A stretch of DNA of 23,690 nt from a virus (IMGVR_UViG_3300020176_000099:1-23690), one strand, 5' to 3'. Shown: positions 1 through 23,690, numbered from the stretch's first letter. Notes: a model not told the origin generated them from the letters alone. Numbers and translations: made by a program.

Positions 1-440
1 GGGAAGAGCGAGCTTATGGTCCTTACGCCCTCCTTGCCGAGCAGGTCGGTGTCGATCATCAGGCACAGGATCTTCCTGTCCTCCTCGCCGTCGTAGGACA
101 CGATGCTGCCGCTGGAGTCCTTCGCTAGCCCCTTCTTTGCGAAGCATATGAACGAGCACTCCATGCTCTCGCCAGTGGGTAGGTGCCTTATGTGGTAGAT
201 GTCGTTCACGGCAATGTCGACCACCTCCTCCTTCACGAATACACGGGTCCACCGGTAAACTCTTTGTTTCTCGACTATTCTCTGCCTCGGTTTGAAGTCT
301 GAGTTCTCAAAGTCGACTTTTTCTATGTCTATCGACTTTACCTGATCCACGACTGCATCCAGGTATGACGGCGACTGCTGGCTTCTCTTGCGCGAGTCCA
401 AAATATCCTTCCTGCTTGGGAAATCCATGTCCATACCCAT
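1..440 (-). CDS. Unknown protein, 3' part outside the window
   Basis: An open frame runs from an ATG at 440 leftwards off the window edge, giving about 146 residues with no stop. The N-terminus is charged, followed by a central segment with VYRWTRVF and IYHIRHLPTGESMEC; I recognise no family. Its ATG overlaps the TAA stop of the upstream gene by one base (TAATG at 438-442), so the two are probably translationally coupled and co-transcribed. In-frame ATGs at 434 and 428 are alternative starts. The reading frame keeps the GC-rich codon usage of its neighbours, which supports it being a real gene. No signal peptide or membrane segment is visible in the part present. Function unknown. Confidence 0.75.
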   Translation of the reverse strand, partial: MGMDMDFPSRKDILDSRKRSQQSPSYLDAVVDQVKSIDIEKVDFENSDFKPRQRIVEKQRVYRWTRVFVKEEVVDIAVNDIYHIRHLPTGESMECSFICFAKKGLAKDSSGSIVSYDGEEDRKILCLMIDTDLLGKEGVRTISSLF

Positions 441-2467
441 TATAATGGGCCGTACCAGGATAGTTGGCTTTCGTGCAGGACCTCCTTGATGAACAGGTCC
501 ATGCACTTGCCCATCTCCCTGCCGACCTTGGCGTACAGCGCGGTCATGACCTTCACCACTATCACCTTGGCCTTTGCCCGCTGCTCACCCCAGACCTCAG
601 TCATGTGGTTGTGGTCCGCGGCCAGCCTCGGGTCCTTCACGCAGTCGACTATGGCCTCCACGGCGTCTACCTCCGTCTTGGGGCTTCCCACCACGGATAA
701 GAGCTTCTCCTCAGGGGTGCCGCCCGCCACTGCACCCGACCATAAGCCGCGGCCCATCAGTCCGATCCTTATGTTCCACCCGAAGTTGGTGCTGGCGATA
801 ACCGCCTCAACGTCCTCGCAGCCGAAGTTCTTCGACCACTCCTCGACCAGGCCGTCGAACCCACCGTACTTGTCTGCGGTGGTGTTCCTTGCCTTGTAGT
901 CTCTGTCCGAGTTCATCATTTGTGCGTGCGCCTCGTTGATTTCCAGGATTTTCTGTTCCTTCAGACCCTCCGGTGCGTCTAGCTTCATGACCAGGTCCCT
1001 CAGTTGGCTTGCAATCACTCCACTGTATGTAGACTCGATGTGGTTCTGCTTGGGCACCGGCACAGACTCGCCTACCGTCTTCATGCCGAACAGCCTGGCG
1101 TCTAGCTCTGTTACGAATTCGTATTGGTACTTCTGGCCGTAAATCTGCTTTGCTCTCGCCATTCCCAGCACGTTCAGGCGTGACACCATAACGCACAAAG
1201 ACATGTTGTAGTAGTCGCCATTGAACTCCGTGAGCACCTTGTCCCTCATCTCCTCTGAGTACATCTTGCCGGTGGCCTGGTCCTCGAAGTACGGGTGGTC
1301 TGAGTTCTCAATCGGGTAGTAGTCCGTGCTATCGTCCTCGTCCGTTATCACCTCCTGGGCGTTCTCCGCGTCGATGTATCCATCCAGGACCCCGCTCCAG
1401 ACGGCGTCGTCCTCCGGTATGTTGTCCCCGGTCGCGGCGTCGGTCACTGACCGGTCCGCGTGCAGCCACGATTCCCTCGAGCTTGACCACACCGCGTGCC
1501 TGCGGGACAGCTCCTGGTCGTGGTAATCCGACCACACCGTGTCCATCTTCTCGTATCCGCCCTCCGTGTCGTGCAGGAGGTACAGGTTTTCCGGGGCGTC
1601 GTCCTTCACGTAGTTGAGCAGCGTGGCGCCCACCTCCTGTTCCGGATCCCCGTCCCTGAGGTAGTAGCAGAAGCTGTCCATGTACGGGAACTGCCCGTAC
1701 ATTTTGTGCGGCTTGATGCGCACGTGCAGCCTCTCGCCCCCGATGGTGTTGTACTTCATCAGGCCGTCCACCTTCATCTCCGCCCACAGCTCCAGAGTCT
1801 TCTCCACGTCCGGCTTGAGGGAGTACACCCGGTCCAGGTATGGCCCCTTGTCGGTCTGCCACAGCAGGGCCCTGGCCTCTAGCCTGCCCTCGTCGTTCAC
1901 CTTGATGACCATAGACACTATGTCCGGGTTGAGGGTGTAGATGTCGAAGAACTCCTGGCAGTCATCGTGTCGCATGCAGGACTTGTTGAGGGTGCCGTCC
2001 CTGCCCTCCCTGCCCGCGTAGTTCTTCTCGTGGTACCACTTTTTTATTTGGTCGCCGGTCACGATGGTTATCGACTCGGTGTTGGACAGCAGGCTGGCGT
2101 AAGACCTGAACAGGTTGCCGAATCGCTCGAGCTCATCGTCGGTCACGGGTATCTTGTTGGAGTTGAAGATGGACTTCACCAGCCTGCCTATGGTCGTCGG
2201 GTTGCTGGCGGCCGCGAACAACTCGGCATCGCTGGTGCCGGCCGCGAGCCTCCTCGTCGCCTGGCTGTCCGGCACGAAGTTGAGCTTGGCGGGGTCGTCG
2301 GCTATCTTTATGAAGTTGTAGTTTGTCTTCACGTCCTGGCCGAGAAGCTCGGCGAGCTTGCTGGCGACCGAGCTCTCGCCCTTGATGATGTCCACTATCT
2401 TCAGGAACTCCTTCGACGCCCTTATCATTGATTCCAGGATGAAGTCCTCGTACCGGCTGATTACCAT
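440..2467 (-). CDS. Large phage accessory protein, paralogue of the 4449-5897 product
   Basis: 675 residues from the ATG at 2467. The frame stays open up to 2521, but those codons cross the divergent promoter box, so the inner Met is preferred. The N-terminus MVISRYEDFILES resembles the capsid-targeting leader of T4 internal proteins (aromatic-x-x-F-[IL]-x-E). Residues about 141-270 hold a core, WYHEK, SCM (163-165), FFDIY, RALLW (199-203), LDRVY (211-215) and PYMDS, that is shared in the same order with the protein encoded at 4449-5897. Both also carry VKTNY near the N-terminus. Residues about 309-371 contain four degenerate 15-16-residue units built on AVWS and W/Y-[LI]-x-x-[DE]. The C-terminal half has no motif I recognise. 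It is transcribed divergently from the nucleotidyltransferase gene, and its stop overlaps the next start. Biochemical function is unknown; packaging into the capsid is an inference from the leader only. Confidence 0.85.
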   Translation of the reverse strand: MVISRYEDFILESMIRASKEFLKIVDIIKGESSVASKLAELLGQDVKTNYNFIKIADDPAKLNFVPDSQATRRLAAGTSDAELFAAASNPTTIGRLVKSIFNSNKIPVTDDELERFGNLFRSYASLLSNTESITIVTGDQIKKWYHEKNYAGREGRDGTLNKSCMRHDDCQEFFDIYTLNPDIVSMVIKVNDEGRLEARALLWQTDKGPYLDRVYSLKPDVEKTLELWAEMKVDGLMKYNTIGGERLHVRIKPHKMYGQFPYMDSFCYYLRDGDPEQEVGATLLNYVKDDAPENLYLLHDTEGGYEKMDTVWSDYHDQELSRRHAVWSSSRESWLHADRSVTDAATGDNIPEDDAVWSGVLDGYIDAENAQEVITDEDDSTDYYPIENSDHPYFEDQATGKMYSEEMRDKVLTEFNGDYYNMSLCVMVSRLNVLGMARAKQIYGQKYQYEFVTELDARLFGMKTVGESVPVPKQNHIESTYSGVIASQLRDLVMKLDAPEGLKEQKILEINEAHAQMMNSDRDYKARNTTADKYGGFDGLVEEWSKNFGCEDVEAVIASTNFGWNIRIGLMGRGLWSGAVAGGTPEEKLLSVVGSPKTEVDAVEAIVDCVKDPRLAADHNHMTEVWGEQRAKAKVIVVKVMTALYAKVGREMGKCMDLFIKEVLHESQLSWYGPL

Positions 2468-2486
2468 AAAAGATGTTTGCGTTTGG

Positions 2487-2497
2487 AATATATATAA
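2487..2497. promoter_or_regulatory. Divergent AT-rich promoter box
   Basis: AATATATATAA sits in the 48-base gap between the divergent starts at 2467 (minus) and 2516 (plus), about 20 bases from each ATG. It matches the box seen before other genes here and, being nearly symmetric, could serve both directions. Promoter role is inferred from recurrence and position. Confidence 0.55.
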
Positions 2498-2515
2498 CCA
2501 AACACAAAGCTCGAA

Positions 2516-3265
2516 ATGCACAGATACATAAGGGAGTTCAGCCAGGCGCAGCCGGAGGAGTTCAGGCCGATAAAGTCTTTCTACCTACAGGAGGAGCTGA
2601 ACGGGAAGGTGTGGGACGGCGAGAGGATCGACGACGGCATCAGGTCGGACCTGCTGTCGATTGCGGAGGACTACGTCGACTACCTGGAGGTTGACGTGGA
2701 GGTGGAGGACATCATACTCATGGGCAGCCTGGCGAACTACAACTGGAGCAGCTACTCGGACTTCGACGTGCACATCGTTTTCGACTTCGCGGAGATAAAC
2801 GACGACAGGGAGTTCGTGGCAAAGTACCTCGACGCCAAGGAGAAGATCTGGAAGTTCAGGCACGAGATCATGGTCGCGGGGTTCGAGGTGGAGCTGTACG
2901 CCCAGGACGTCGACGACAAGGGGGTCTCGAGCGGCCAGTTCTCGCTCCTGCACAACAAGTGGCTCAGGAAGCCGAGCATGGAGGACTTCGAGCCCGACGA
3001 GGCCCTGATCAAGCGCAAGTCGAGGGTTATCATGGACCAGATCGACGAGGTGGAGCACGACTTCGAGAAGAATTATTCCTACCAGGAGCTCGCGGAGAAG
3101 GCCAACCGGATCATGAAGAAGCTCAAGGACAACAGGCAGAAGGGACTGGACAAGGAAGGGGAGTTCTCGATCGAGAACCTGGTGTTCAAGCTGCTGCGCA
3201 GGAACGGGTACATCGGCAGGCTGCTGGAGCTCAAGAGCAAGATATACGACAAACAATTCAAGTGA
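2516..3265 (+). CDS. Nucleotidyltransferase-fold protein (MNT/pol beta superfamily)
   Basis: 249 residues. The nucleotidyltransferase signature is clear: MGS at residues 69-71, then SDFDVHIVFDF with metal-binding Asp82 and Asp84, and a likely third acid in FEVELY (Glu124/Glu126). Members of this superfamily move a nucleotide to a small molecule, protein or RNA end; the substrate here cannot be read from sequence. Related proteins with an SDxDLH-type motif are common in large phages and mostly uncharacterised. The C-terminal third is Lys/Glu-rich and probably helical. It begins the plus-strand unit 2516-5897, with the next ATG only 3 bases after its TGA. No Shine-Dalgarno sequence is evident. 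The start is supported by its 19-base distance from the promoter core. Confidence 0.85.
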   Translation: MHRYIREFSQAQPEEFRPIKSFYLQEELNGKVWDGERIDDGIRSDLLSIAEDYVDYLEVDVEVEDIILMGSLANYNWSSYSDFDVHIVFDFAEINDDREFVAKYLDAKEKIWKFRHEIMVAGFEVELYAQDVDDKGVSSGQFSLLHNKWLRKPSMEDFEPDEALIKRKSRVIMDQIDEVEHDFEKNYSYQELAEKANRIMKKLKDNRQKGLDKEGEFSIENLVFKLLRRNGYIGRLLELKSKIYDKQFK

Positions 3266-3268
3266 CTT

Positions 3269-3961
3269 ATGGCGAAAGTAAGGATAGAGGACGTGGAGTC
3301 CACGATAAGGGACCTGTTCGAGGAGGAGGGGGGCAAGGTTGCCTCCGTCGACACCGTCTACGAGAAGATAGAGGGCGAGGACGCCTACAAGCTGGTCATA
3401 TCGATGCACCACGTCTCTATGGCAGACACTGTGGTTATACACACCAAGTTCATATTCCGGACGGATGGTAAAAAGAGGCGGCTGACCCAGGAGTCCTTCA
3501 TCTACCTGTACGACATAAACTGCGTGTACCACAAGATAGACTTCGAGAACACCCTGGACCTCAAGGTTAAGATAAAGGACATCATAGAGTCCAACGACTT
3601 CGGGAAGGACCTGCAGATCCTCAGCGACTTTATTGAGGCCCCGGGCATGTTCCTCAACTACTACATGAAGAAGAACGACATCACCGAGTACTCCATATTC
3701 GACGTCACCTACAACCCGAAGTTCAAGACAATATCGTGCGACAGGATGACCTTCGACTTCGACATCAACGTCAACAACAACTACACGATATCCATGTCCA
3801 TAAAGAAGCTGGACCGCGAGCGCGACGAGGACTTCGACCGTTACCGGTTCCACTTCTCCCTGCTCGACACCAACCGGACGGTCGAGTCGGACACGCTCAA
3901 GAACATCCACTTCACCATCGGGTCCGAGATCGCAGCGATGCTCGACGAGAAACTGAAGTGA
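3269..3961 (+). CDS. Unknown protein following the nucleotidyltransferase
   Basis: 230 residues, starting 3 bases after the nucleotidyltransferase stop, so very probably co-translated with it. The sequence alternates hydrophobic and charged stretches (for example VVIHTKFIFRT and YTISMSIKKLDR), suggesting a mixed, beta-rich soluble fold. There is no signal peptide, membrane segment, zinc motif or known catalytic signature. Codon use matches the neighbours. Its tight coupling suggests it acts with the nucleotidyltransferase, possibly as a partner or target, but that is inference from gene order only. Confidence 0.8.
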   Translation: MAKVRIEDVESTIRDLFEEEGGKVASVDTVYEKIEGEDAYKLVISMHHVSMADTVVIHTKFIFRTDGKKRRLTQESFIYLYDINCVYHKIDFENTLDLKVKIKDIIESNDFGKDLQILSDFIEAPGMFLNYYMKKNDITEYSIFDVTYNPKFKTISCDRMTFDFDINVNNNYTISMSIKKLDRERDEDFDRYRFHFSLLDTNRTVESDTLKNIHFTIGSEIAAMLDEKLK

Positions 3962-3967
3962 CGCGCT

Positions 3968-3976
3968 AATATATAC
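3968..3976 (+). promoter_or_regulatory. AATATATAC promoter box
   Basis: An exact AATATATAC lies between the stop at 3961 and the ATG at 3997, leaving a 20-base A-rich leader without Shine-Dalgarno. It is one of at least nine copies of this box or close variants in the window. Confidence 0.6.
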
Positions 3977-3996
3977 ACAAAACTAAATCACCACTC

Positions 3997-4440
3997 ATGC
4001 CATACAACCACAACGACCAGAACTACCTGACCGGGGCATCCCGGATAACAAGCTTCGCGGATTTCTCCCGGCACGAGCGCGACGAGAAGGAGGAGCTGGC
4101 CAAGATGCGCAGGAACTTCCGCAAGAGGGGCGAGACCCACGACGCGCCAGGCGAGCGCAAGCACAAGTGGAACAGGGCAACCCTCAAGACAGATGACCTT
4201 TCTGCGGCCGAGGTCGCCGACCGGGAGCTGGCCCTCGAGGAGGGACACGCCCACGCGACACAGAACTACATGTTCTTCGCGAACGTCAAGAACATCTGCA
4301 GGATGGCCAGGGAGATCATGGCAATGGACCCGCAGGAGGTCGACCGGATGCTGGCGGACCACGGCTGGGCCACCGACCACATCGCGACCTCCAAGGACGA
4401 CGTAGAGGAGGTCTACAACTGGCTGATTTCCAAAAGATAG
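3997..4440 (+). CDS. Unknown small charged protein
   Basis: 147 residues, rich in Arg, Glu and Asp, with a likely helical N-terminal half (RHERDEKEELAKMRRNFRKR) and a second helical part ending DVEEVYNWLISKR. No family is recognised, and there is no signal peptide, membrane segment or metal motif. It has its own upstream AATATATAC box and is followed after 8 bases by the large protein at 4449, so it can head a two-gene transcript with that paralogue. The leader before the ATG lacks a Shine-Dalgarno sequence. Confidence 0.75.
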   Translation: MPYNHNDQNYLTGASRITSFADFSRHERDEKEELAKMRRNFRKRGETHDAPGERKHKWNRATLKTDDLSAAEVADRELALEEGHAHATQNYMFFANVKNICRMAREIMAMDPQEVDRMLADHGWATDHIATSKDDVEEVYNWLISKR

Positions 4441-4448
4441 GCCGACGT

Positions 4449-5897
4449 ATGATAACCGGTTACCTTGAATTCCTTCTCGAGAGAAGGATAATGTCGATGA
4501 ACGAGGCCGTCGTGAGGTTCTCCGACAGGTTCTCCGACCTTCTGCGCATGGTAGACTCCCCAATATCGGCGGCTCTGCTGTCCAAGAGGGACGAGGACCA
4601 ACCGGTCAAGACCAACTACTTCGACCTATCCAAAGACGGGGACCACCTAAGCTTCCTGACGGACGCGAAGGCCAGGCAGATGTCGGAGAGGACCAGGAAG
4701 GTAGTCGTGACGAACGCCGCACCGGTGGTCAGCTACAACTACTCCGACCTGTTCAAGCACATGGGCCTCGAGAGAGCCGACCTGCGGATCCCCGAGGATA
4801 ATGATGTCGGCGTAGTGGTGGGCGAGGCCACCTGGAGGGGCAGGGACTACCTTAGGCTTGCCCTAGACCCAGACCGGGCGCCCGAAGGCCCAGGGTGCAT
4901 CATCCTGAAGTCGTTCACGGCCCCGTCCGAGGACGACCTGTGGACCAAGGGCAGGCAGGACATCAGGGTCGGCAGGGGCGTGAGGGCCCTTGCCGCGTCC
5001 CTTGGACTGGAGTTCACGGACGCCCAGCTGGAGGACTTCGTGAACAAGTTCAAGGCGAACTACGAGAGGGCGAACGACGCGTTCAGGAACTTCGAGGTGA
5101 TCAAGGGACCGGAGATAGGCCGGATGTACCACGAGAAAATGTACCAGGACCCAGAGAGGGGCGACCTGGGGACCTCCTGCATGAAGGCCAAGCCGGAGTG
5201 GTTCTTCGACATATACTCCAAGAACCCGGGGGTCTGCAAGATGGTGGTTCTCAGGAGTTCCTCGGACCCGAATAAGATCGTGGGCAGGGCCCTGCTTTGG
5301 AGGCTGAAGACCCCCGACATATCTTTCATGGACCGGATATACGCCAACACACCTACCCAGATGCAGCTCTTCCGTGAGTACGCCAAGGCCAATGGGATCT
5401 GGCACAAGGCCGCCAACAACAACTCGACCTCCGGGTATATCGTGGACCCCTCGGGTAGGGAGATGAGGGTGGACAAACTCGTGGTCGAGATCGACAACCT
5501 GAACTACAAGGCATACCCTTATATGGACACCCTCAGATACCTTGCAGACGGGCACGGTAAGGCAACCCTGTCCAACGAGGAGAGTGACGGATGCCGAGGA
5601 CTGGACGACACCATGGGAAGATGGTCCACGGATGATGGATGTGACACCTGTGGCGGTTCCGGTAGGGAGGGTTGCGAAGACTGCATGGGCACCGGAACTA
5701 TGGATTGCTGGCAGTGCGGTGGCGACGGCAAGACGCTCTGCGGCAACTGCGACGGGGATGGTGTTACCGACAACGGTAGGTGCGTGTCATGTGGCGGTTC
5801 CGGTGAAACGGAGTGCGAGGAGTGCGACGGCACCGGCAGGAACGAGTGTCCGCGTTGCGATGGCGACGGATGGCTTGATTGTGCCGACTGCGGATAA
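4449..5897 (+). CDS. Paralogue of the 440-2467 product with C-terminal DnaJ-like cysteine array
   Basis: 482 residues. The N-terminus MITGYLEFLLER parallels MVISRYEDFILES of the other copy and fits a T4-type capsid-targeting leader; this resemblance also supports the start at 4449 rather than the Met at 4491. VKTNY (53-57), MYHEK, SCM (243-245), FFDIY, GRALLW (279-284), MDRIY (294-298) and PYMDT follow in the same order as in the paralogue. Residues about 398-481 add eight CxxC pairs, most followed by GxG (CGGSG, CMGTG, CDGDG types), the pattern of the DnaJ central zinc-binding region, but with twice the usual four. DnaJ-type arrays bind zinc and often contact unfolded protein. There is no J domain. 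It ends one base from the convergent gene at 5899. Function is unknown; zinc binding is well supported by the motif. Confidence 0.88.
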   Translation: MITGYLEFLLERRIMSMNEAVVRFSDRFSDLLRMVDSPISAALLSKRDEDQPVKTNYFDLSKDGDHLSFLTDAKARQMSERTRKVVVTNAAPVVSYNYSDLFKHMGLERADLRIPEDNDVGVVVGEATWRGRDYLRLALDPDRAPEGPGCIILKSFTAPSEDDLWTKGRQDIRVGRGVRALAASLGLEFTDAQLEDFVNKFKANYERANDAFRNFEVIKGPEIGRMYHEKMYQDPERGDLGTSCMKAKPEWFFDIYSKNPGVCKMVVLRSSSDPNKIVGRALLWRLKTPDISFMDRIYANTPTQMQLFREYAKANGIWHKAANNNSTSGYIVDPSGREMRVDKLVVEIDNLNYKAYPYMDTLRYLADGHGKATLSNEESDGCRGLDDTMGRWSTDDGCDTCGGSGREGCEDCMGTGTMDCWQCGGDGKTLCGNCDGDGVTDNGRCVSCGGSGETECEECDGTGRNECPRCDGDGWLDCADCG

Positions 5898-5898
5898 A

Positions 5899-7011
5899 CT
5901 ACTCGTAGTTCTCGCCATAGATTCTGACTATCTCGTTATATTCTGACAACATCCCCGATTTGACCTTCTCGTCGTACGAAAGGGATAAAATGTGTTCCCT
6001 TATGTAGTCCTTGAATTCGAGTTGCAACTGCGGCAGCCTTGTTGGGTCCGGCGCAATCTCTTCTGCCTCTGCCTTGCCGGGATCCACGCCCGCCGATTCC
6101 GACAGGTCGTCTATATACGATATGCTGGCGAACTGTCCCCTCTCTAGTGCCATTTCCAACTTGCGCCTCAACTTGCGGTTACCCACCAACAACTTATTGG
6201 ATACCGAGAGGTCTATGTAGTTGAAGAAGTTCAGCCCGTCCAACAGGTCCATGTCCGCCTCGGTCAACACTGACACTCTTTCAAACTTGGGGGATACGTT
6301 ATTTGCGAAGAACTCCTCCTCTCCTGTCTCCACATCTAACGCTAGTATACCTTTCTGGTCACCGTAATCGCTTCGGTCCATCTGGAAGATGTTCCCTATG
6401 AACTTGAAGTTTTTGTGGGTGTCTCGGATATGTATGTGTCCAGAATAAACCCTGGCGAAGTGCCTGAACTCCTCCACGTCTATCTTGTCCGGGTTCTTGT
6501 GTGCGACGCTCGTCAGGTGCATCCTTGCGCCTGACAGGTCGGAGTGACAAAACAGGTAGTCCGCGCCCTTTACGCCGGCGATCTCAGTGATCTGCTCGGC
6601 CCTCCTTTCCACGTACGGCATCATGACCAACTTCTTACCAGCGAACTCGACCACTCCCGTGGTCTCATGTATGGTGACATTCGGGATCCACCGGAACGGC
6701 CTGATGGTGTTGATCTCGCTCGAGCTCTTGTGCCAGCAGTCGTGGTTGCCGAGTATAATATGCAATGGCGCTATGCCGGCCATCTCCTCCACCACTAGCA
6801 TCCCGAAGTTGAGCAGGTTTATGGGAATAATGTTGCGGTTGTCGAACAGGTCCCCGAGGTGGATTATGATGTCCCCCTCCTCCACCTCCCTCCTCAGGAG
6901 GGGCAGCAGAAAGTCCCTGAAGTACTGATCGTGGACCCGGTGCCACTTGTCGACGCTGTTGGGGTATCCGAGGGCTATATGGGTGTCTCCTATAAGGAAT
7001 GCTCTGGGCAT
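5899..7011 (-). CDS. gp47/SbcD-like metallophosphoesterase, recombination nuclease subunit
   Basis: 370 residues. All calcineurin-type phosphoesterase motifs are present: GDTH (Asp9, His11), GDLFDNR (Asp54), GNHD (Asn89-Asp91), a His at 156 and GHIH (His192, His194). Order, spacing and length fit the SbcD/Mre11/T4 gp47 family, whose product pairs with an SbcC/gp46 ATPase to process DNA ends during replication and recombination. The part after about residue 245 is an extension like the capping and partner-binding region of that family, but it is not recognisable by motif. No gp46 gene lies in this window; I would expect it nearby on the phage genome. It follows the gene at 7039-8247 on the same strand after 27 bases, with an A-rich leader and no Shine-Dalgarno sequence. 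Confidence 0.9.
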   Translation of the reverse strand: MPRAFLIGDTHIALGYPNSVDKWHRVHDQYFRDFLLPLLRREVEEGDIIIHLGDLFDNRNIIPINLLNFGMLVVEEMAGIAPLHIILGNHDCWHKSSSEINTIRPFRWIPNVTIHETTGVVEFAGKKLVMMPYVERRAEQITEIAGVKGADYLFCHSDLSGARMHLTSVAHKNPDKIDVEEFRHFARVYSGHIHIRDTHKNFKFIGNIFQMDRSDYGDQKGILALDVETGEEEFFANNVSPKFERVSVLTEADMDLLDGLNFFNYIDLSVSNKLLVGNRKLRRKLEMALERGQFASISYIDDLSESAGVDPGKAEAEEIAPDPTRLPQLQLEFKDYIREHILSLSYDEKVKSGMLSEYNEIVRIYGENYE

Positions 7012-7038: not shown

Positions 7039-8247
7039 TCAGGCGTCGAAGAAGAACATGTGCCACAGCCTGCCGTCCTGCATGTCTTGTCCGAAGTACT
7101 CGGACGCGGAGTGTATGCAGGACCCGTCGAATATGACGAGCCTGTTGAACACGTTGCCGGCCACGTCGACCGGCTCGAAGGGAGTGCGGTCGAGGTGGTT
7201 GCCGTTCACCCATGCCTCGTCCCACCCCGGGTCGTCGAATGTCCTGGCCCTGTTGCGCCTGTTCGCATACATGGTGGTGCCGGTCTGGAAGGGCGCGCCG
7301 GGCGTCAGGAACAGCATGCCCGCGAACCTCTGCGAGTCGCAGTGGTATACCAGGGGCTCACCCGCCCAGGCGACCTGGAACCGGCCGTTCATCCCATGGC
7401 TCTCCCACCCGGTGATCGGCATGCCGATGATCTGCTCGAACCTCTCCTTGAGTCCCGGGAAAAGGAACCTGCCCGAGGTCCTGCGTCCGATGTAGCCCCT
7501 GCCTATGCCACCCTCGTCGAAGGGTTGACGGAGTGCGAACTCCCTCACCGCCATAGGGTCCTGGTAGAAGTTGTCAACTATCCAAAGTCTCGGCTTGGTA
7601 GATGGGTTTATTGCGAAACTATTTGGAGATCCCTTTCGGAACACCGCACACCCACCGACCCTCGAGTGCAGGTAGAACCCCAGGCCACAAAGCAAGGGTT
7701 CCGCTTTTTTGGTCTCATCGGACCACTCGATGTCGTTGACCATAAAGTATCCGCCCTCCACGACCGCAGGAGCCCACCGGGCGACGTCCCTGGAAACCTG
7801 GTCGGTGTGTTGTCCGTCCAGGTGAACCACGCACAGGTCTCCCAGGTGGGGCGCATTATCGCTGGTGGTCTTCATCAGGCACGTGTAGTCTTCGGCACCA
7901 AGCAGGCCGATGCCGTCAACGCATATTTCGTGCATCAAGTCCATATCCACGGCACCCCAGAAGTCCCGGTGCTCGCCCTCATAGCCAGCGGTGGCCTCCC
8001 TGTTGTCCCACGGATCGATGCCGTAGACCATGCCTCGGCCGATCGACTTCAGGGCAAGGGCGAAGGGGTAAAGGCTCTTGCCGCCGTAGACTCCGATCTC
8101 GGCGCATATCGGGTTCTCCCTTGGGGAGCAAACCTCCCTCACCAGGTTCATTATGACGCGGGCCTTGTCTGCGGTGCACCAACCCCAGTTGGTGCCGTGT
8201 ATGGCGTCGAGCTCGGCCCACACCCTGGATATTTCCTGATCAAGCAT
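7039..8247 (-). CDS. Fusion: class I methyltransferase (Methyltransf_24-like) plus 2OG-Fe(II) oxygenase-like domain (DUF6445-like)
   Basis: 402 residues with two apparent domains. Residues about 25-205 look like a SAM-dependent methyltransferase: AEIGVYGGKS (motif I, 49-58), VYGIDPW at about 74-80 and a later VVHLDGQHT/GGYFMVNDIEW segment, as in the Methyltransf_24 group often linked to sugar or surface-polymer modification. Residues about 220-402 resemble iron/2-oxoglutarate oxygenases of the DUF6445 type: HCD (His302, Asp304) and HSA (His379) supply a plausible 2-His-1-carboxylate metal site, with GTTMYANR between them. Substrate unknown. The fusion would couple methylation and hydroxylation; a role in modifying glycans, proteins or DNA bases cannot be separated from sequence alone. 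It starts at 8247, divergent from the gene at 8350. Confidence 0.82.
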   Translation of the reverse strand: MLDQEISRVWAELDAIHGTNWGWCTADKARVIMNLVREVCSPRENPICAEIGVYGGKSLYPFALALKSIGRGMVYGIDPWDNREATAGYEGEHRDFWGAVDMDLMHEICVDGIGLLGAEDYTCLMKTTSDNAPHLGDLCVVHLDGQHTDQVSRDVARWAPAVVEGGYFMVNDIEWSDETKKAEPLLCGLGFYLHSRVGGCAVFRKGSPNSFAINPSTKPRLWIVDNFYQDPMAVREFALRQPFDEGGIGRGYIGRRTSGRFLFPGLKERFEQIIGMPITGWESHGMNGRFQVAWAGEPLVYHCDSQRFAGMLFLTPGAPFQTGTTMYANRRNRARTFDDPGWDEAWVNGNHLDRTPFEPVDVAGNVFNRLVIFDGSCIHSASEYFGQDMQDGRLWHMFFFDA

Positions 8248-10583: not shown

Positions 10584-11204
10584 ATGCCGTTGCCCCACTT
10601 TACAAGGTTACTTATGACAGGTAGTCCAGGTGGCCCAGGAACTCAGCCGCACGAACCGGTCTACAAGAACCTGTTCGAGATCACCTTTATCCTGCCTACC
10701 ATCCTGCAGGCACAGGGAAGGGATCCAATAATGTTGCTCCAGCAGGCCACCTCGGTAAACCTTGACTTGACCCCGGACATCCCTACGGCGGAGCAGAGGT
10801 TCAAGTACTCTAGCCGCGCATTCGTGGGTACGCCCGATTCTACGTTGCTCAAGTTGGACATCAAGTTCAACGTGAACGTGAACAAGTCCGGCCAGATGGA
10901 AGTGTGGAACACCCTGAAGGCATGGTACGACCTGTGCTGGAACTCCCAGAACGGCGCCCTGCACTACAAGGCGGACATCATCGGTACACTGGTGGTAAAC
11001 CAGCACGACAGGAAGGGCCTTGTGATCCGCAGGGTCACATGCCAGAACGCGCAGCTTCACGGGATCAGCTCTATCTCCGACCTGCAGTGGGGCGGCGGCG
11101 CCGACATCGCCGACGCGTCCGCGAAGTTCATCTGCGACTACTGGATCGATGAGTACATCGACGGAAACTTCACCATCCAGCCGCCACTCGTTGCCGGCTA
11201 CTAA
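10584..11204 (+). CDS. Tail tube protein, T4 gp19-like
   Basis: 206 residues. The length, the N-terminal strand segment YKNLFEITFILP, the central DIKFNVNVN strand, and the C-terminal part with HDRKGLVIRRVTCQNAQLHG and ISSISDLQW match the gp19 tail-tube family of contractile-tailed phages, which stacks as hexameric rings inside the sheath. No sheath gene (gp18) is seen beside it in this window. The gene has two promoter boxes upstream and a strong terminator 17 bases downstream, so it is a single-gene transcript, consistent with a major structural protein made in many copies. Codon use matches the other late-type genes. Confidence 0.85.
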   Translation: MPLPHFTRLLMTGSPGGPGTQPHEPVYKNLFEITFILPTILQAQGRDPIMLLQQATSVNLDLTPDIPTAEQRFKYSSRAFVGTPDSTLLKLDIKFNVNVNKSGQMEVWNTLKAWYDLCWNSQNGALHYKADIIGTLVVNQHDRKGLVIRRVTCQNAQLHGISSISDLQWGGGADIADASAKFICDYWIDEYIDGNFTIQPPLVAGY

Positions 11205-12144: not shown

Positions 12145-12217
12145 GAGGGCGGCGCGGATTCGAACCGCAGAGTCGTGGGATTTGCAGTCCCACTGGTCGC
12201 CATGACCTCACCGCCCT
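12145..12217 (-). tRNA. tRNA-Cys (GCA)
   Basis: Cloverleaf of 73 nt: acceptor AGGGCGG with CCGCCCT, anticodon stem TGGGA/TCCCA around CTGCAAA (anticodon GCA), T arm TGCGG-TTCGAAT-CCGCG. No CCA is encoded. By this folding position 73 is C rather than the usual U of bacterial tRNA-Cys, so either the end is one base off or the discriminator is unusual. Confidence 0.9.
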
Positions 12218-12224
12218 TGTCTTG

Positions 12225-12294
12225 ATGCCTCACCTGGATTCGAACCAGGGCCGATTCAGCAAAACGAATCGTGCTGCCGCTACACCATGAGGCA
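12225..12294 (-). tRNA. tRNA-Gln-like (TTG) with irregular anticodon loop
   Basis: Acceptor TGCCTCA/TGAGGCA, with U1-A72 as typical of Gln; D arm GTGT-AGCGGCA-GCAC; T arm CCTGG-TTCGAAT-CCAGG. The anticodon arm GATTC...GAATC closes an 8-nt loop (GTTTTGCT); the other register, ATTCG/TGAAT, gives a 6-nt loop. Neither gives a normal 7-nt loop. TTG (Gln) is the best reading; TTT (Lys) is possible in the 8-nt register. CCA not encoded; 70 nt. Confidence 0.72.
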
Positions 12295-12302
12295 TTATTC
12301 AG

Positions 12303-12376
12303 TGTGAACACCGGGATTCGAACCCGGACCTCGGCCGTCACAAGGCCGCACGCTTAACCAGTTGCGCTATGCTCAC
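12303..12376 (-). tRNA. tRNA-His (GTG)
   Basis: Acceptor GTGAGCA/TGTTCAC (one G-T), anticodon stem CGGCC/GGCCG with loop TTGTGAC, T arm CCGGG-TTCGAAT-CCCGG type. A G precedes position 1, available as the His G(-1); position 73 reads A. No CCA encoded. Confidence 0.92.
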
Positions 12377-12385
12377 CATATTCAG

Positions 12386-12457
12386 TGGACCCTCCCGGAT
12401 TCGAACCGGGACTCCTCGGGTAAGAACCGAGTTGACTAGCCGTTATCATAAGAGTCC
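12386..12457 (-). tRNA. tRNA-Lys (CTT)
   Basis: Acceptor GGACTCT/AGGGTCC, D loop AACGGCT, anticodon stem CTCGG/CCGAG with loop TTCTTAC (CTT), T arm CCCGG-TTCGAAT-CCGGG, A73. It reads AAG, the Lys codon strongly preferred by the phage genes here. Confidence 0.93.
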
Positions 12458-12462
12458 TGTCG

Positions 12463-12534
12463 CACGGGTAAGAGAGTACGATTCCCTGCTTCCGATTTTG
12501 GAGATCGACGTGCTACCAGTTACACCATACCCGT
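12463..12534 (-). tRNA. tRNA-Trp (CCA anticodon), aberrant T loop
   Basis: Acceptor ACGGGTA/TACCCGT, anticodon loop CTCCAAA (anticodon CCA), G73 as expected for Trp. The T arm is AGGGA-ATCGTAC-TCTCT: positions 54 and 58 are A and U, the reverse of the near-universal U54/A58. 72 nt, no encoded 3' CCA. Confidence 0.85.
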
Positions 12535-12541
12535 GTGTCTG

Positions 12542-12613
12542 CTCTCCGGGGGAGTTACGATATCCCGACCCTGCGCTTAACAAGCGCGCGCTCTGCCACT
12601 GAGCTACCGGAGA
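12542..12613 (-). tRNA. tRNA-Asn (GTT), aberrant T loop
   Basis: Acceptor TCTCCGG/CCGGAGA, D arm GCTC-AGTGGCA-GAGC, anticodon loop TTGTTAA, G73. The T arm is GGGAT-ATCGTAA-CTCCC, with A54/U58 reversed as in the neighbouring Trp gene and a T-C mismatch at 53-61. Confidence 0.85.
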
Positions 12614-12616
12614 GTT

Positions 12617-12690
12617 TGGCGGTCGATACGAGAATCGAACTCGTGCTACCGGCGTGACAAGCCGGCGTCCTACCATTAAACCAATCGACC
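12617..12690 (-). tRNA. tRNA-Asp (GTC), 3' CCA encoded
   Basis: Acceptor GGTCGAT/ATCGACC, anticodon stem CCGGC/GCCGG with loop TTGTCAC, T arm ACGAG-TTCGATT-CTCGT, G73 followed by genomic CCA (12617-12619). It is the only tRNA in the cluster where CCA is clearly encoded. Confidence 0.93.
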
Positions 12691-12700
12691 GTTTGTGTTG

Positions 12701-13591
12701 TTAGTGATTTTGATAATACTTTACCCATTTCCTTATGGTATTATCACTAACACCATATTTTCTCCCTGTTTTAGCAAAACCAAAATCTCCTATATCTTTC
12801 ATCAATGTTTCATAATCAGGTCTTAATACTTTTCTAGCTTTTATGTCCCTGCCTATTTCCCTTTCTGTTTGTTTTCCATTTATTCTTCTTTTTTGATATC
12901 CGCCGTTTTTCTTAAAGATACCAAAAGAGAATTTTTCCGATCTATGGGCGTCATGAAGAATGTTTTTAAGTTCTGACATGAACTGATTGATATTTTTTTT
13001 TATTTCGTTCTCAGTTACTCTCACAACTGTCCATTCGTTTTCTATTAGGAGTAGATCTTTTTTTTCATCTTTTTCTTTTCTGTCTTCATTCAAGTGTTGT
13101 GATCCATCTATCTCCACCGCCACCTTCTCATTCAAAAAAGCAAAATCAATGTAATACGGGTATACACTATGTTCTCTTTCTATAGCATATTCTTGGTCCC
13201 ATTTTAATTCTAGTAACTTGTTGAAAAATAATTTTTCGGGGTACGAAAAGTTAGATTTTCTCCATGCTGTTTTATCTGGGTTCTCCGACATATACTTCAG
13301 TCTGGCATCTCTCATTTTGACTTTGGTTTTTTCTGTGTGCCTAAATGGATACCTAATCTTTGCTAGTTTAGCCGAGTCTGATTGGCTTCTAGTCATCCCA
13401 TCTAATATCTTAACAATTTTATTTTTAGAATAGTTATATTTTTTCATTAAGTCCCTAATCGAACACATATCCTCAACATATGACTTTATGATACTGTCTT
13501 TTTCTATTGGATCAAATCCACATTTTTTTCTATGCATTGATAATCCACATTTCTTTAAGAAGGACTGACCACATATTTCACATTTAATCAT
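12701..13591 (-). CDS. Homing endonuclease of the Vsr-like/DUF559 (EDxHD) type, inserted in the tRNA array
   Basis: 296 residues. The N-terminus has a zinc-finger-like CxxC...HxxxC set (CEIC...MHRKKC). A nuclease core follows at about 115-205: SYPEKLFFNKLLE, YIDFAFLNEKVAVEIDGSQH and the later WTVVRVTENEI, the layout of Vsr/DUF559-type PD-(D/E)XK enzymes and phage EDxHD homing endonucleases. The C-terminus ends with a helix-turn-helix-like segment (KYGVSDNTIRKWVKYY). The gene is markedly AT-rich compared with every neighbour and uses AAA/AAT/ATT codons, showing recent acquisition. It lies 10 bases from tRNA-Asp, with its own TATATATAG box 3 bases before the ATG. It would cut a cognate site in phages lacking the insertion and so spread with the tRNA region. 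Confidence 0.87.
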   Translation of the reverse strand: MIKCEICGQSFLKKCGLSMHRKKCGFDPIEKDSIIKSYVEDMCSIRDLMKKYNYSKNKIVKILDGMTRSQSDSAKLAKIRYPFRHTEKTKVKMRDARLKYMSENPDKTAWRKSNFSYPEKLFFNKLLELKWDQEYAIEREHSVYPYYIDFAFLNEKVAVEIDGSQHLNEDRKEKDEKKDLLLIENEWTVVRVTENEIKKNINQFMSELKNILHDAHRSEKFSFGIFKKNGGYQKRRINGKQTEREIGRDIKARKVLRPDYETLMKDIGDFGFAKTGRKYGVSDNTIRKWVKYYQNH

Positions 13592-13594
13592 GTC

Positions 13595-13603
13595 CTATAT
13601 ATA
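13595..13603 (-). promoter_or_regulatory. TATATATAG box before the homing endonuclease
   Basis: On the minus strand TATATATAG ends 3 bases before the ATG at 13591, the same tight spacing as other boxes here. With no visible terminator before 11249, it could also drive the seven downstream tRNAs and two small genes. Confidence 0.5.
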
Positions 13604-13648
13604 AAAACTCGAACCCCATTTAAGTTACGTGTCTTTACCTTTATAGTG

Positions 13649-13731
13649 TGGTGTAGGTAGGACTCGAACCTACACGCTCCGAAGAGACCGCTTTTACAGA
13701 ACGGCGAGCCAACCGATTACTCAACTACACC
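13649..13731 (-). tRNA. tRNA-Tyr (GTA)
   Basis: 83 nt with a long variable arm, as expected for bacterial Tyr. Acceptor GGTGTAG/CTACACC, anticodon stem CCGTT/AGCGG with loop CTGTAAA, T arm GTAGG-TTCGAGT-CCTAC, A73. Confidence 0.93.
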
Positions 13732-13735
13732 ATAG

Positions 13736-13809
13736 TGGTACCCACAGGAATCGAACCTGCGCTGTCCCGCCTCTTCAGGGCGGCGCTCTACCAGCTGAGC
13801 TAGGGCACC
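13736..13809 (-). tRNA. tRNA-Phe (GAA)
   Basis: Acceptor GGTGCCC/GGGTACC, D arm GCTC/GAGC, anticodon stem CCGCC/GGCGG with loop CTGAAGA, T arm GCAGG-TTCGATT-CCTGT, A73. Four bases separate it from tRNA-Tyr. Confidence 0.94.
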
Positions 13810-20569: not shown

Positions 20570-23500
20570 ATGTCAGGACCAAAGCTTATTATCAATTTCC
20601 CCCCGCTCACCTCGGTGCCCCCAAGCACCTGGCTACTCGCGGTGGGCGACCCATCCACCGGCGTCCTCTACAAGGCGCCCATAAGCCTACTGACAACCGG
20701 CCCCCAGGGATGGCAGGGATATGGTGGCCTCCAGGGTAGGCAAGGTCCGCAGGGACTCGTTGGCCGCCAGGGGTTCCAGGGATGGCAGGGTGAGAAGGGT
20801 GACTTCGGGGGCGCGCAGGGCAACCAAGGATGGCAGGGCGCGACAGGTCCCGCCGGCGACCCGGGCGGCCCACAGGGCCTCCAGGGACTCCAGGGCCTAA
20901 CCGGGAGTGTCGGACCCCAAGGGTCCCAGGGCAACCAGGGTTTCCAGGGATGGCAGGGCAACCAGGGGTTCCAGGGATGGCAGGGCAACCAGGGGTTCCA
21001 GGGATGGCAGGGCAACCAAGGGTTCCAAGGATGGCAGGGCAACCAGGGGTTCCAGGGATGGCGGGGCAACCAGGGGTTCCAGGGATGGCAGGGCAACCAA
21101 GGGTTCCAGGGATGGCAGGGTTCGCAGGGTCCAACGGGTATCGGCAGGCAGGGCAGGCAGGGACCTCAGGGTCCCCAGGGGTGGCAGGGCCTGCAAGGTC
21201 CTCAGGGTGAGACGGGACTGACAGGACCCCAGGGTTTCCAGGGAGAGACCGGCCCCACGGGCATCGGCGTACAGGGTTGGCAGGGCGTCACCGGTCCCGC
21301 AGGCGATCCGGGCGGGCCACAGGGCCTCCAGGGTCTGCAGGGATGGCAGGGCGTAACCGGCGTGCAGGGTTTCCAGGGTTGGCAGGGCGCCAAGGGGGAC
21401 TTCGGAGGCGCACAGGGAAGACAGGGACCACAGGGCGTACCGGGCATCCAGGGACGCCAGGGCGTGGCAGGGGAAGCGGCGAACGCGGCCAACTGGCGGT
21501 TGTACAAATACATGGGATCGGTCACCTCGCCGACCCCGGGAAACGGGGTTGCGGACGACGGCACCTTCAAGATATGGGACGGAAGGCCCCTCGACACCGT
21601 TGTCGAGATAGACGCATCTGTCCAATTCAAGAACATCGTAGAGATAAACATCGCAGAGGTGGACTACGACTCGATCAACAGGGAACCGTACTTCGAGTAC
21701 CTTAGCGTGGGTTCAGTCATCAGCTTCTACCGACCAGAGGACAAGGACAGGAAGTGGTGGTTCAAGATAACGTCCAAGTCCGCCAACGGTACCTGGTACA
21801 CTTTGGGGGTCACGGGACTTGGTGGCGGCGCAGTCAACAACAATTTCGACTACATACAGGAGTACACCGAGTACGAGGTGGCGTTCGATATAGTCGGCGC
21901 CATGGGTTTGCAGGGATGGCAAGGATGGCAGGGTGAGAAGGGAGACTTCGGTGGGCCCCAGGGCTGGCAGGGCTGGCAGGGCATCACGGGTCCCGCCGGG
22001 GACCCGGGCGGTCCACAGGGGTTGCAAGGTTTCACCGGACCAACGGGATTCGGCCTGCAGGGCCTGCAGGGTGTCACGGGTCCGACCGGGGTTCAGGGAT
22101 TGCAAGGCCCCCAGGGCATCCAGGGTTGGCAAGGCGTCACGGGTCCGACCGGGTTCGGATTCCAGGGATTCCAAGGGGTCACCGGCCCGACCGGCATCCA
22201 GGGTTGGCAAGGCATCACGGGTCCAACCGGGTTCGGGTTCCAGGGACTCCAGGGGGTTACCGGACCGACCGGCATCCAGGGTTGGCAAGGCATCACAGGT
22301 CCGACCGGGTTCGGGTTCCAGGGTCAACAAGGGGAGACCGGACCCACAGGCATCCAGGGTTGGCAGGGTATAACCGGCCCGACCGGGTTCGGGTTTCAGG
22401 GTGTCCAGGGTTGGCAGGGTCTCCAGGGTCTCCAGGGATGGCAGGGAATAACCGGACCGACCGGTATCGGTCTGCAGGGCTTCCAGGGCTTCCAGGGATA
22501 TCAGGGATTCCAGGGTTGGCAGGGGATAACCGGCCCGACCGGGTTCGGGTTCCAGGGACAACAGGGTGAGACCGGCCCGACCGGCATCCAGGGTTGGCAG
22601 GGCATAACCGGCCCGACCGGGTTCGGTCTTCAGGGTTTCCAAGGGTTCCAAGGTCTCCAGGGTTTCCAGGGTTGGCAGGGCATAACCGGTCCAACCGGGT
22701 TCGGTCTTCAGGGGTTCCAGGGATATCAGGGATTCCAGGGACTCCAGGGTTGGCAGGGTATAACCGGTCCGACCGGATTTGGCTTCCAGGGCTTCCAGGG
22801 TTTCCAAGGGTTCCAGGGTTGGCAGGGTATCACAGGTCCTACCGGACTTGGTGGCCAGGGACAACAGGGATATCAAGGATTTCAAGGGTTCCAGGGACTG
22901 CAGGGTCTGCAAGGCATTACTGGTCCGACTGGACTTGGTGGCCAGGGACAACAGGGATGGCAGGGATTCCAGGGATTCCAAGGCGTCCAAGGGTTTCAGG
23001 GAGTGCAGGGATTCCAAGGCGTCCAAGGGTTTCAGGGATTCCAAGGCGTCCAAGGGTTTCAGGGATTCCAAGGCGTCCAAGGGTTCCAGGGAGTGCAGGG
23101 ACAACAGGGTTTCCAAGGGTTCCAGGGAGTACAAGGTTTCCAAGGCTTCCAGGGATTGCAAGGACGACAGGGATTGCAGGGATTCCAAGGTTTCCAGGGA
23201 TTGCAGGGCTTCCAGGGATTGCAGGGATTCCAAGGTCTGCAGGGATTGCAGGGATTCCAAGGTCTGCAGGGATTGCAGGGATTCCAGGGCCGGCAGGGAT
23301 TGCAGGGATTCCAGGGTCTGCAGGGATTCCAAGGCCTGCAGGGATTGCAGGGATTCCAGGGTCTGCAGGGATTCCAGGGTCTGCAGGGCCTACAGGGCAT
23401 CACTGGACCGACAGGTCCCGGGTTCCAGAGCATCTACAACCCGATGACATACCGGGTACTTACCGCAACAGGATCTTCAACCAACATAGCGTATGCCAGC

Positions 23501-23690
23501 AGACACTTCACCATGAACGACGCCGCTATACCTATTGCGAGGATAGAGGGTCACCTGCTTGTGGGGACATTCTCTACCGAACCCACTGCGGTGCCGGGCA
23601 AGATTAACGCGGCGAACGACGTGGTTGCATACAGCACATCCGACGAGAGGCTCAAGCACCGGATAGAACCCCTGGAGAACCCACTAGCTG
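20570..23690 (+). CDS. Giant collagen-like tail fibre with S74-type chaperone domain, 3' end outside the window
   Basis: At least 1040 residues from the ATG at 20570; the frame is open to the window edge. Residues 1-43 form a short head ([17 protein letters not shown]), probably for attachment. Residues about 44-300 are Gly-x-y triplets. About 301-445 form a non-repetitive globular insert ([30 protein letters not shown]). About 446-952 are again Gly-x-y triplets, then a linker and, at the end, [19 protein letters not shown], the start of a peptidase S74/endosialidase-type intramolecular chaperone that trimerises and then releases itself. Triplets are dominated by GFQ, GLQ and GWQ, with GPTG only at intervals. 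It would form a trimeric rod for host binding. The promoter box stands 24 bases upstream. Confidence 0.9.
20927..21115 (+). repeat. Seven tandem 27-bp units in the fibre gene
   Basis: Seven consecutive 27-bp copies (nine codons, GNQGFQGWQ) that differ from one another by only a few bases, starting CAGGGCAACCAGGG. The near identity points to recent expansion by slippage or unequal recombination. Confidence 0.9.
22972..23088 (+). repeat. Four 27-bp units in the second collagen-like region
   Basis: The unit begins GGGATTCCAAGGCGTCCAAG and encodes GFQGVQGFQ. Copies at 22972-22998, 23008-23034, 23035-23061 and 23062-23088; the last differs by one base and a 9-base spacer follows the first. Three- and nine-codon variants continue to about 23400. 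Confidence 0.88.

Follow-up and report, generated by a model that had tools for sequence, protein, structure and literature searches.

What do two related proteins without a named family, encoded near one end of a viral contig, do for the phage that carries them? The window analysed here is a 23.7-kb virus record from IMG/VR (IMGVR_UViG_3300020176_000099:1-23690), a single contig fragment, and the two proteins are A (675 residues; 443-2467 on the minus strand, stop codon at 440-442) and B (482 residues; 4449-5897 on the plus strand). Both belong to an unnamed phage protein family to which we gave the working label SCM family. We lean towards reading A and B as modular effectors that would be packaged and injected in the manner of phage T4 and that combine a new core of GNAT-like fold with C-terminal binding modules that vary; we consider packaging, taken alone, likely. 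A sequence-only reading of this DNA had singled out the pair, and both genes are real, although it left unstated that the first is on the minus strand. It had overlooked that the proteins are part of a large phage-borne family, that their genes lie in a conserved five-gene block, and that they carry an N-terminal tag.

All eight motifs on which the pairing had been based (VKTNY, (W/M)YHEK, SCM, FFDIY, NP, RALLW, DR(I/V)Y and PYMD) were present in both proteins, in the same order. BLASTP of A against B gave 80 bits (E=4e-20, 28% identity across 255 residues), an alignment of the two cores better than chance. In the predicted structures the cores of A and B showed an identical order of secondary-structure elements, so the two models do not have different folds. 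Together, the E-value and the matching order rule out a chance resemblance. The proteins are paralogs, as proposed, yet old ones, each with its own orthologs in other phages. In a tree of 127 cores, A grouped on a long branch (1.06) with the A genes of phage contigs L073, L074 and L083 (support 100/91), apart from B and the B genes. Since the two ortholog groups are separate, the A/B split predates these phages, and the tree rules out a recent duplication inside the window.

About 130 members of the SCM family were gathered. None of Pfam, PHROGs, NCBIfam and PADLOC has a name for the core, in agreement with the sequence-only reading, and searches of these four libraries and of PDB sequences gave no convincing match to a known family; five members matched phrog_23053, which is itself unnamed. 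With tblastn, relatives appeared in the four complete phage genomes that are the largest in Al-Shayeb et al. 2020 (PMC7162821), which are assigned to the Mahaphage clade with Bacteroidetes as predicted hosts. Others were in Thermus phage TSP4 and in the Cellulophaga phages phi38:1, phi40:1 and Calle. Among phage records the closest full-length relative of B is in the 634-kb phage (35% identity over 100% of the length). Profile matches numbered 18 in the 735-kb phage (LR756501), 15 in the 636-kb phage, nine in the 642-kb phage (LR756502) and eight in the 634-kb phage, counts that include a few partial pieces. A scan of IMG/VR with a five-row alignment as query gave 60 loci with 84 distinct members, at one to eight copies per contig in 27 contigs, many of which are fragments; when B was the sole query against viral contigs, there was no match. 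A bacterial origin was rejected, as a B-type profile found no relative in 84,980 bacterial and archaeal genomes in a single pattern-based scan of limited reach. In the literature library searched, we found no paper describing the family or its tag in megaphages, and a proteomics paper on Cellulophaga phage phi38:1 does not name that phage's SCM member. Tandem runs of three or four SCM genes with conserved order were seen at L041:5881-10167 (735-kb phage) and in L095, L096, L099, L100, L103 and L106, and the tree splits the positions of the tandem run into ortholog groups.

The N-termini of A and B resemble the capsid-targeting sequence of T4. In T4, the first ten residues of the tag are enough for packaging, with positions 4 and 7 governing targeting and positions 8 and 10 governing processing (PMC9026906). 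The N-terminus shared by T4 ipII and ipIII, read from NC_000866, is MKTYQEFIAE, a Y-x-x-F-I-x-E tag. That of A (MVISRYEDFILE; 2432-2467, minus strand) contains YEDFILE and that of B (MITGYLEFLLE; 4449-4481, plus strand) YLEFLLE, so that both match the four critical T4 positions Y4, F7, I8 and E10. We defined a strict tag as [YF]xx[FY][ILVM]xE directly after a methionine, and found it in 59 of 138 SCM members overall. In the IMG/VR set, 41 of 84 members carried it versus 23 of 701 neighbouring open reading frames (Fisher p=1e-28), and in the set of megaphages plus the window, 18 of 54 members versus 22 of 365 others (p=9e-8); both p-values are approximate, given that members are related to one another. 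After internal methionines of SCM members the strict tag occurred once in 997 cases. When only the two aromatic residues were fixed ([YF]xx[FY]), the next residue was [ILVM] in 86% of N-termini versus 19% of internal sites, and Glu stood at +3 in 69% versus 12%. The residue after the tag is small, most commonly Ala or Ser.

The tag also occurs outside the family. In the 642-kb phage the pattern was present in 23 of 759 open reading frames (about 3%, a few of them probably false starts), compared with 10 of 2,276 internal methionines and three open reading frames for the reversed pattern. The tagged proteins of this phage include a T4-type RNA ligase 1 (PF09511 E=2e-20; L170:4190-5458, N-terminus MKKLHRYNSFIKES), an Acb1-like 2H phosphoesterase (PF13563 E=2e-11, PF23474 E=2e-6; L169:5776-6312, N-terminus MIKKYLEFMKES) of the type that acts against the cyclic-oligonucleotide-based antiphage signalling system (CBASS), a PPK2 polyphosphate kinase (E=6e-77), a methyltransferase, an HNH protein and a DHH protein, the last under the Pfam cut-off. 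Tagged PPK2 proteins of giant phages were located at L086:9974-11122 and L152:4179-5342, and in L051, which encodes a protein related to the RNA ligase 1, the PHROG profile alignment begins at residue 23. RNA ligase 1 mends cut tRNA and Acb1 cleaves CBASS signals, both counter-defence functions.

Giant relatives of the window's phage carry a T4-type capsid gene. Gp23 of the T4 type, the major capsid protein, scored over the cut-off in each of the ten giant relatives tested. In nine of the ten, a weak match to the gp21-type protease sits a few kb from Gp23, as expected of a T4-like head cluster. The window encodes an SbcD-like (T4 gp47-type) nuclease subunit (5899-7011, minus strand) and a tail-tube protein (phrog_45; 10584-11204, plus strand), which are consistent with a T4-like myovirus. 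The likeness to T4 has its limits. T4 IPI, IPII, IPIII and Alt are targeted to the capsid and ejected; SCM proteins differ from them in a core without profile match and in their many paralogs per genome. The N-terminus of Alt (MELITELFDE) departs from the tag pattern, and neither A nor B had a Pfam or PHROGs match to an Alt-type ADP-ribosyltransferase domain.

These comparisons bear on whether SCM proteins could be packaged head-core proteins that serve assembly or DNA condensation, like T4 IPIII or gp22, gp67 and gp68, rather than enzymes acting in the host. IPIII carries an equal tag and functions in head morphogenesis (PMC9026906), and in the 735-kb phage four SCM members lie in a row (61.9-66.2 kb) about 8 kb from the protease-capsid cluster. 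However, a head-core role fits poorly with 8-18 divergent paralogs per giant phage, strictly conserved polar residues and differing C-terminal modules, and the other tagged proteins are enzymes. Members also occur in Cellulophaga and Thermus phages that lack Gp23: the search for it in Calle_1 and TSP4 gave no match, and the SCM members of both are untagged. We therefore regard a head-core role as rather unlikely.

The conserved core spans approximately residues 159-393 of B (4923-5627, plus strand), as delimited by 53- and 73-sequence alignments and the AlphaFold model, and approximately residues 79-306 of A (1550-2233, minus strand; profile match E=3.5e-65). The cysteine of the SCM motif, proposed to be invariant from A and B alone, was present in 53 of 53 aligned members and in all 73 rows of the larger alignment. 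The key residues of the B core are Y227, C244, R280, W284, D295, R296, Y298, P357 and D360. Among the 53 members Y227, C244, R280, Y298, P357 and D360 were invariant, with S243, W284 and R296 at 98% and D295, G220 and Y256 at 96%; in the 73 rows the invariant set was Y227, S243, C244, R280, D295, Y298, P357 and D360. A has C164, R199, D212, R213, Y215, P261 and D264 in invariant columns. The suggestion of a folded domain was borne out by AlphaFold, with a predicted local distance difference test (pLDDT) score mostly above 90 in the B core and a mean of 90.7 over residues 1-395; the first 300 residues of A were also modelled with high confidence.

Almost all of the top 50 PDB fold matches of both models were to the GNAT superfamily, among them GCN5, Eis2, FemX, N-myristoyltransferase and ATE1, with which the SCM core shares a beta-beta-beta-alpha-beta order. 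The best match of B was GCN5 (Foldseek E 0.003, probability 0.95), and that of A had an E-value of 0.013. D295 of B would fall on strand beta4, the strand that bears the catalytic Glu of GCN5. In the viral structure library, the significant matches were unnamed phage proteins, one labelled a putative hydrolase. Unlike GNAT proteins, SCM members have the invariant SCM cysteine and a long extra N-terminal region, and no GNAT family was among the listed Pfam matches (E<=1) of 73 members. Two results count against a transferase. The GNAT matches had E-values of 0.003-0.2 with low TM-scores, none in the PDB search with either model reaching 0.001, and the R/QxxGxG/A loop that binds coenzyme A (CoA) is absent, the corresponding beta4-alpha3 segment being YANTPTQMQLF in B and YSLKPDVEKTL in A. 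Because the fold matches are dominated by GNAT proteins, with these shortcomings, a GNAT-like transferase is the leading but unproven reading of the modelled core.

The missing loop and the weak Foldseek similarity would also suit proteins that are not enzymes at all, in which a degenerate GNAT-like scaffold would bind RNA or host proteins and the C-terminal repeats, which resemble binding repeats, would add further binding sites. We consider this unlikely, as the conservation of Cys, Arg, Tyr and Asp without exception across 53-73 divergent sequences looks more like that of an active site. Membership of the PcfJ-like family (PF14284; Enterococcus phage EFDG1) was prompted by a short Cys motif after G-x-x-L (HCV versus SCM) and a local fold match (66 columns, root-mean-square deviation 2.0); it was ruled out on sequence, with a profile-profile probability of 0.4% in hhalign and no PF14284 match in the giant phages.

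The C-terminal modules of the two proteins differ, as had been described. B ends in a Cys-rich tail (residues 398-481; 5640-5891, plus strand) of seven CxxCxGxG units and a final CxxC, resembling the zinc repeats of DnaJ; its match to the DnaJ Cys-rich domain 1exk was weak (E=0.039), DnaJ has four units, and B gave no Pfam match to a J-domain. In A, beta-hairpin repeats with a W/Y-S-x-x motif (approximately residues 305-405; 1253-1555, minus strand) appear as strand-strand units in the model and are common to A orthologs and several other members. They are followed by a helical C-terminal region (443-1252, minus strand) modelled with low confidence. Tails of other SCM members are long and different, or absent. 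An effector-like role for proteins with a common core and variable parts is retained from the sequence-only reading, but targeting most likely falls to the N-terminal tag and not to the C-terminal module.

In the reading we favour, the T4-type tag would build an SCM protein into the prohead core, a gp21-like protease would trim the tag after its Glu, and the trimmed protein would be ejected along with the phage DNA. The GNAT-like core, with its set of Tyr, Cys, Arg, Asp-Arg-x-Tyr and Pro-x-x-Asp, would probably provide a transferase active site that works without the CoA pyrophosphate loop, and the C-terminal module would select the partner, through its zinc repeats in B and its beta-hairpin repeats in A. 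With a neighbouring nucleotidyltransferase, the SCM proteins may form a kit for takeover or counter-defence that works early. The presence of the T4 head-packing tag on many members suggests that they probably belong to such an injected kit. More speculatively, and with some doubt, we suggest that the largest phages carry a tag-marked injected proteome whose most amplified part could be a new family of transferases of GNAT fold, marked by the invariant Cys and by exchangeable binding modules at the C-terminus, beside known anti-defence enzymes. Giant phages devote much of their genomes to proteins without assigned function. If this proposal is correct, one family that has no name makes up 8-18 genes in every one of the four complete phage genomes of greatest size, and the proteins injected by any T4-like giant phage could be listed simply from the tag. 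What giant phages deliver at infection, a long-standing question, would become directly testable, with a pointer to new anti-defence enzymes.

Several observations weigh against this interpretation. The strict motif is missing in about half of the members, several of which are one-residue variants, and the 15 matches of the 636-kb phage are mostly untagged. The gp21-type protease matches are weak (E 1e-4 to 4e-6, under the Pfam cut-off), and the 23.7-kb fragment does not include the head genes of the phage it comes from. For all members, packaging and cleavage are predictions from sequence. A GH108 endolysin-like protein is tagged in another phage and RNA ligase 1 also aids tail-fibre attachment, so the tag alone is no proof of an injected effector. 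The tagged endolysin-like protein and the frequency of the motif in the 642-kb phage would also suit a signal by which this lineage sorts proteins elsewhere, such as to a replication compartment, with SCM proteins acting after expression rather than by injection. This is quite unlikely, since the four functional T4 positions are identical, the following residue is small, and the tag co-occurs with T4-type Gp23.

A and B flank a nucleotidyltransferase, as had been noted, but two further conserved unnamed genes also lie between them. The nucleotidyltransferase-like protein (NT; 2516-3265, plus strand; GSxxNYNWSxYSDxDxH) matched phrog_36119 (E=2e-39) and, just under the cut-off, PF01909 (E=8e-4). 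It is followed by genes for proteins of 230 residues (3269-3961, plus strand) and 147 residues (3997-4440, plus strand; YMFFxN...W..DHI), which matched L073, L074 and L083 with E-values of about 1e-97 and 1e-36, respectively. The order and orientation of this five-gene block, A on the minus strand and NT, the two unnamed genes and B on the plus strand, are kept in these three phage contigs, two of which (L073 and L074) are near relatives of each other. The G+C content of the window is 56.6% versus 27-31% in its closest relatives, and despite this gap the block order, core residues and N-terminal tag are all retained. NT also adjoins an SCM member in L061/L105, one sequence held in two records. 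Its N-terminus in L073 and L083 is FNEYFVQ or FNEYLVQ, the tag pattern with Gln replacing Glu, and in the 735-kb phage (L043) NT is fused to a tagged N-terminus.

Elsewhere in the window, a protein encoded at 7039-8247 on the minus strand combines a methyltransferase domain (PF13578) with DUF6445 (PF20043). Nine clustered tRNA genes lie at 12145-13809 on the minus strand (Cys, one of undetermined type with a four-base anticodon, His, Lys, Trp, Asn, Asp, Tyr and Phe). Long collagen-like G-x-P repeats, with open frames overlapping on both strands, extend from 20600 to 23600 and probably represent a tail-fibre gene.

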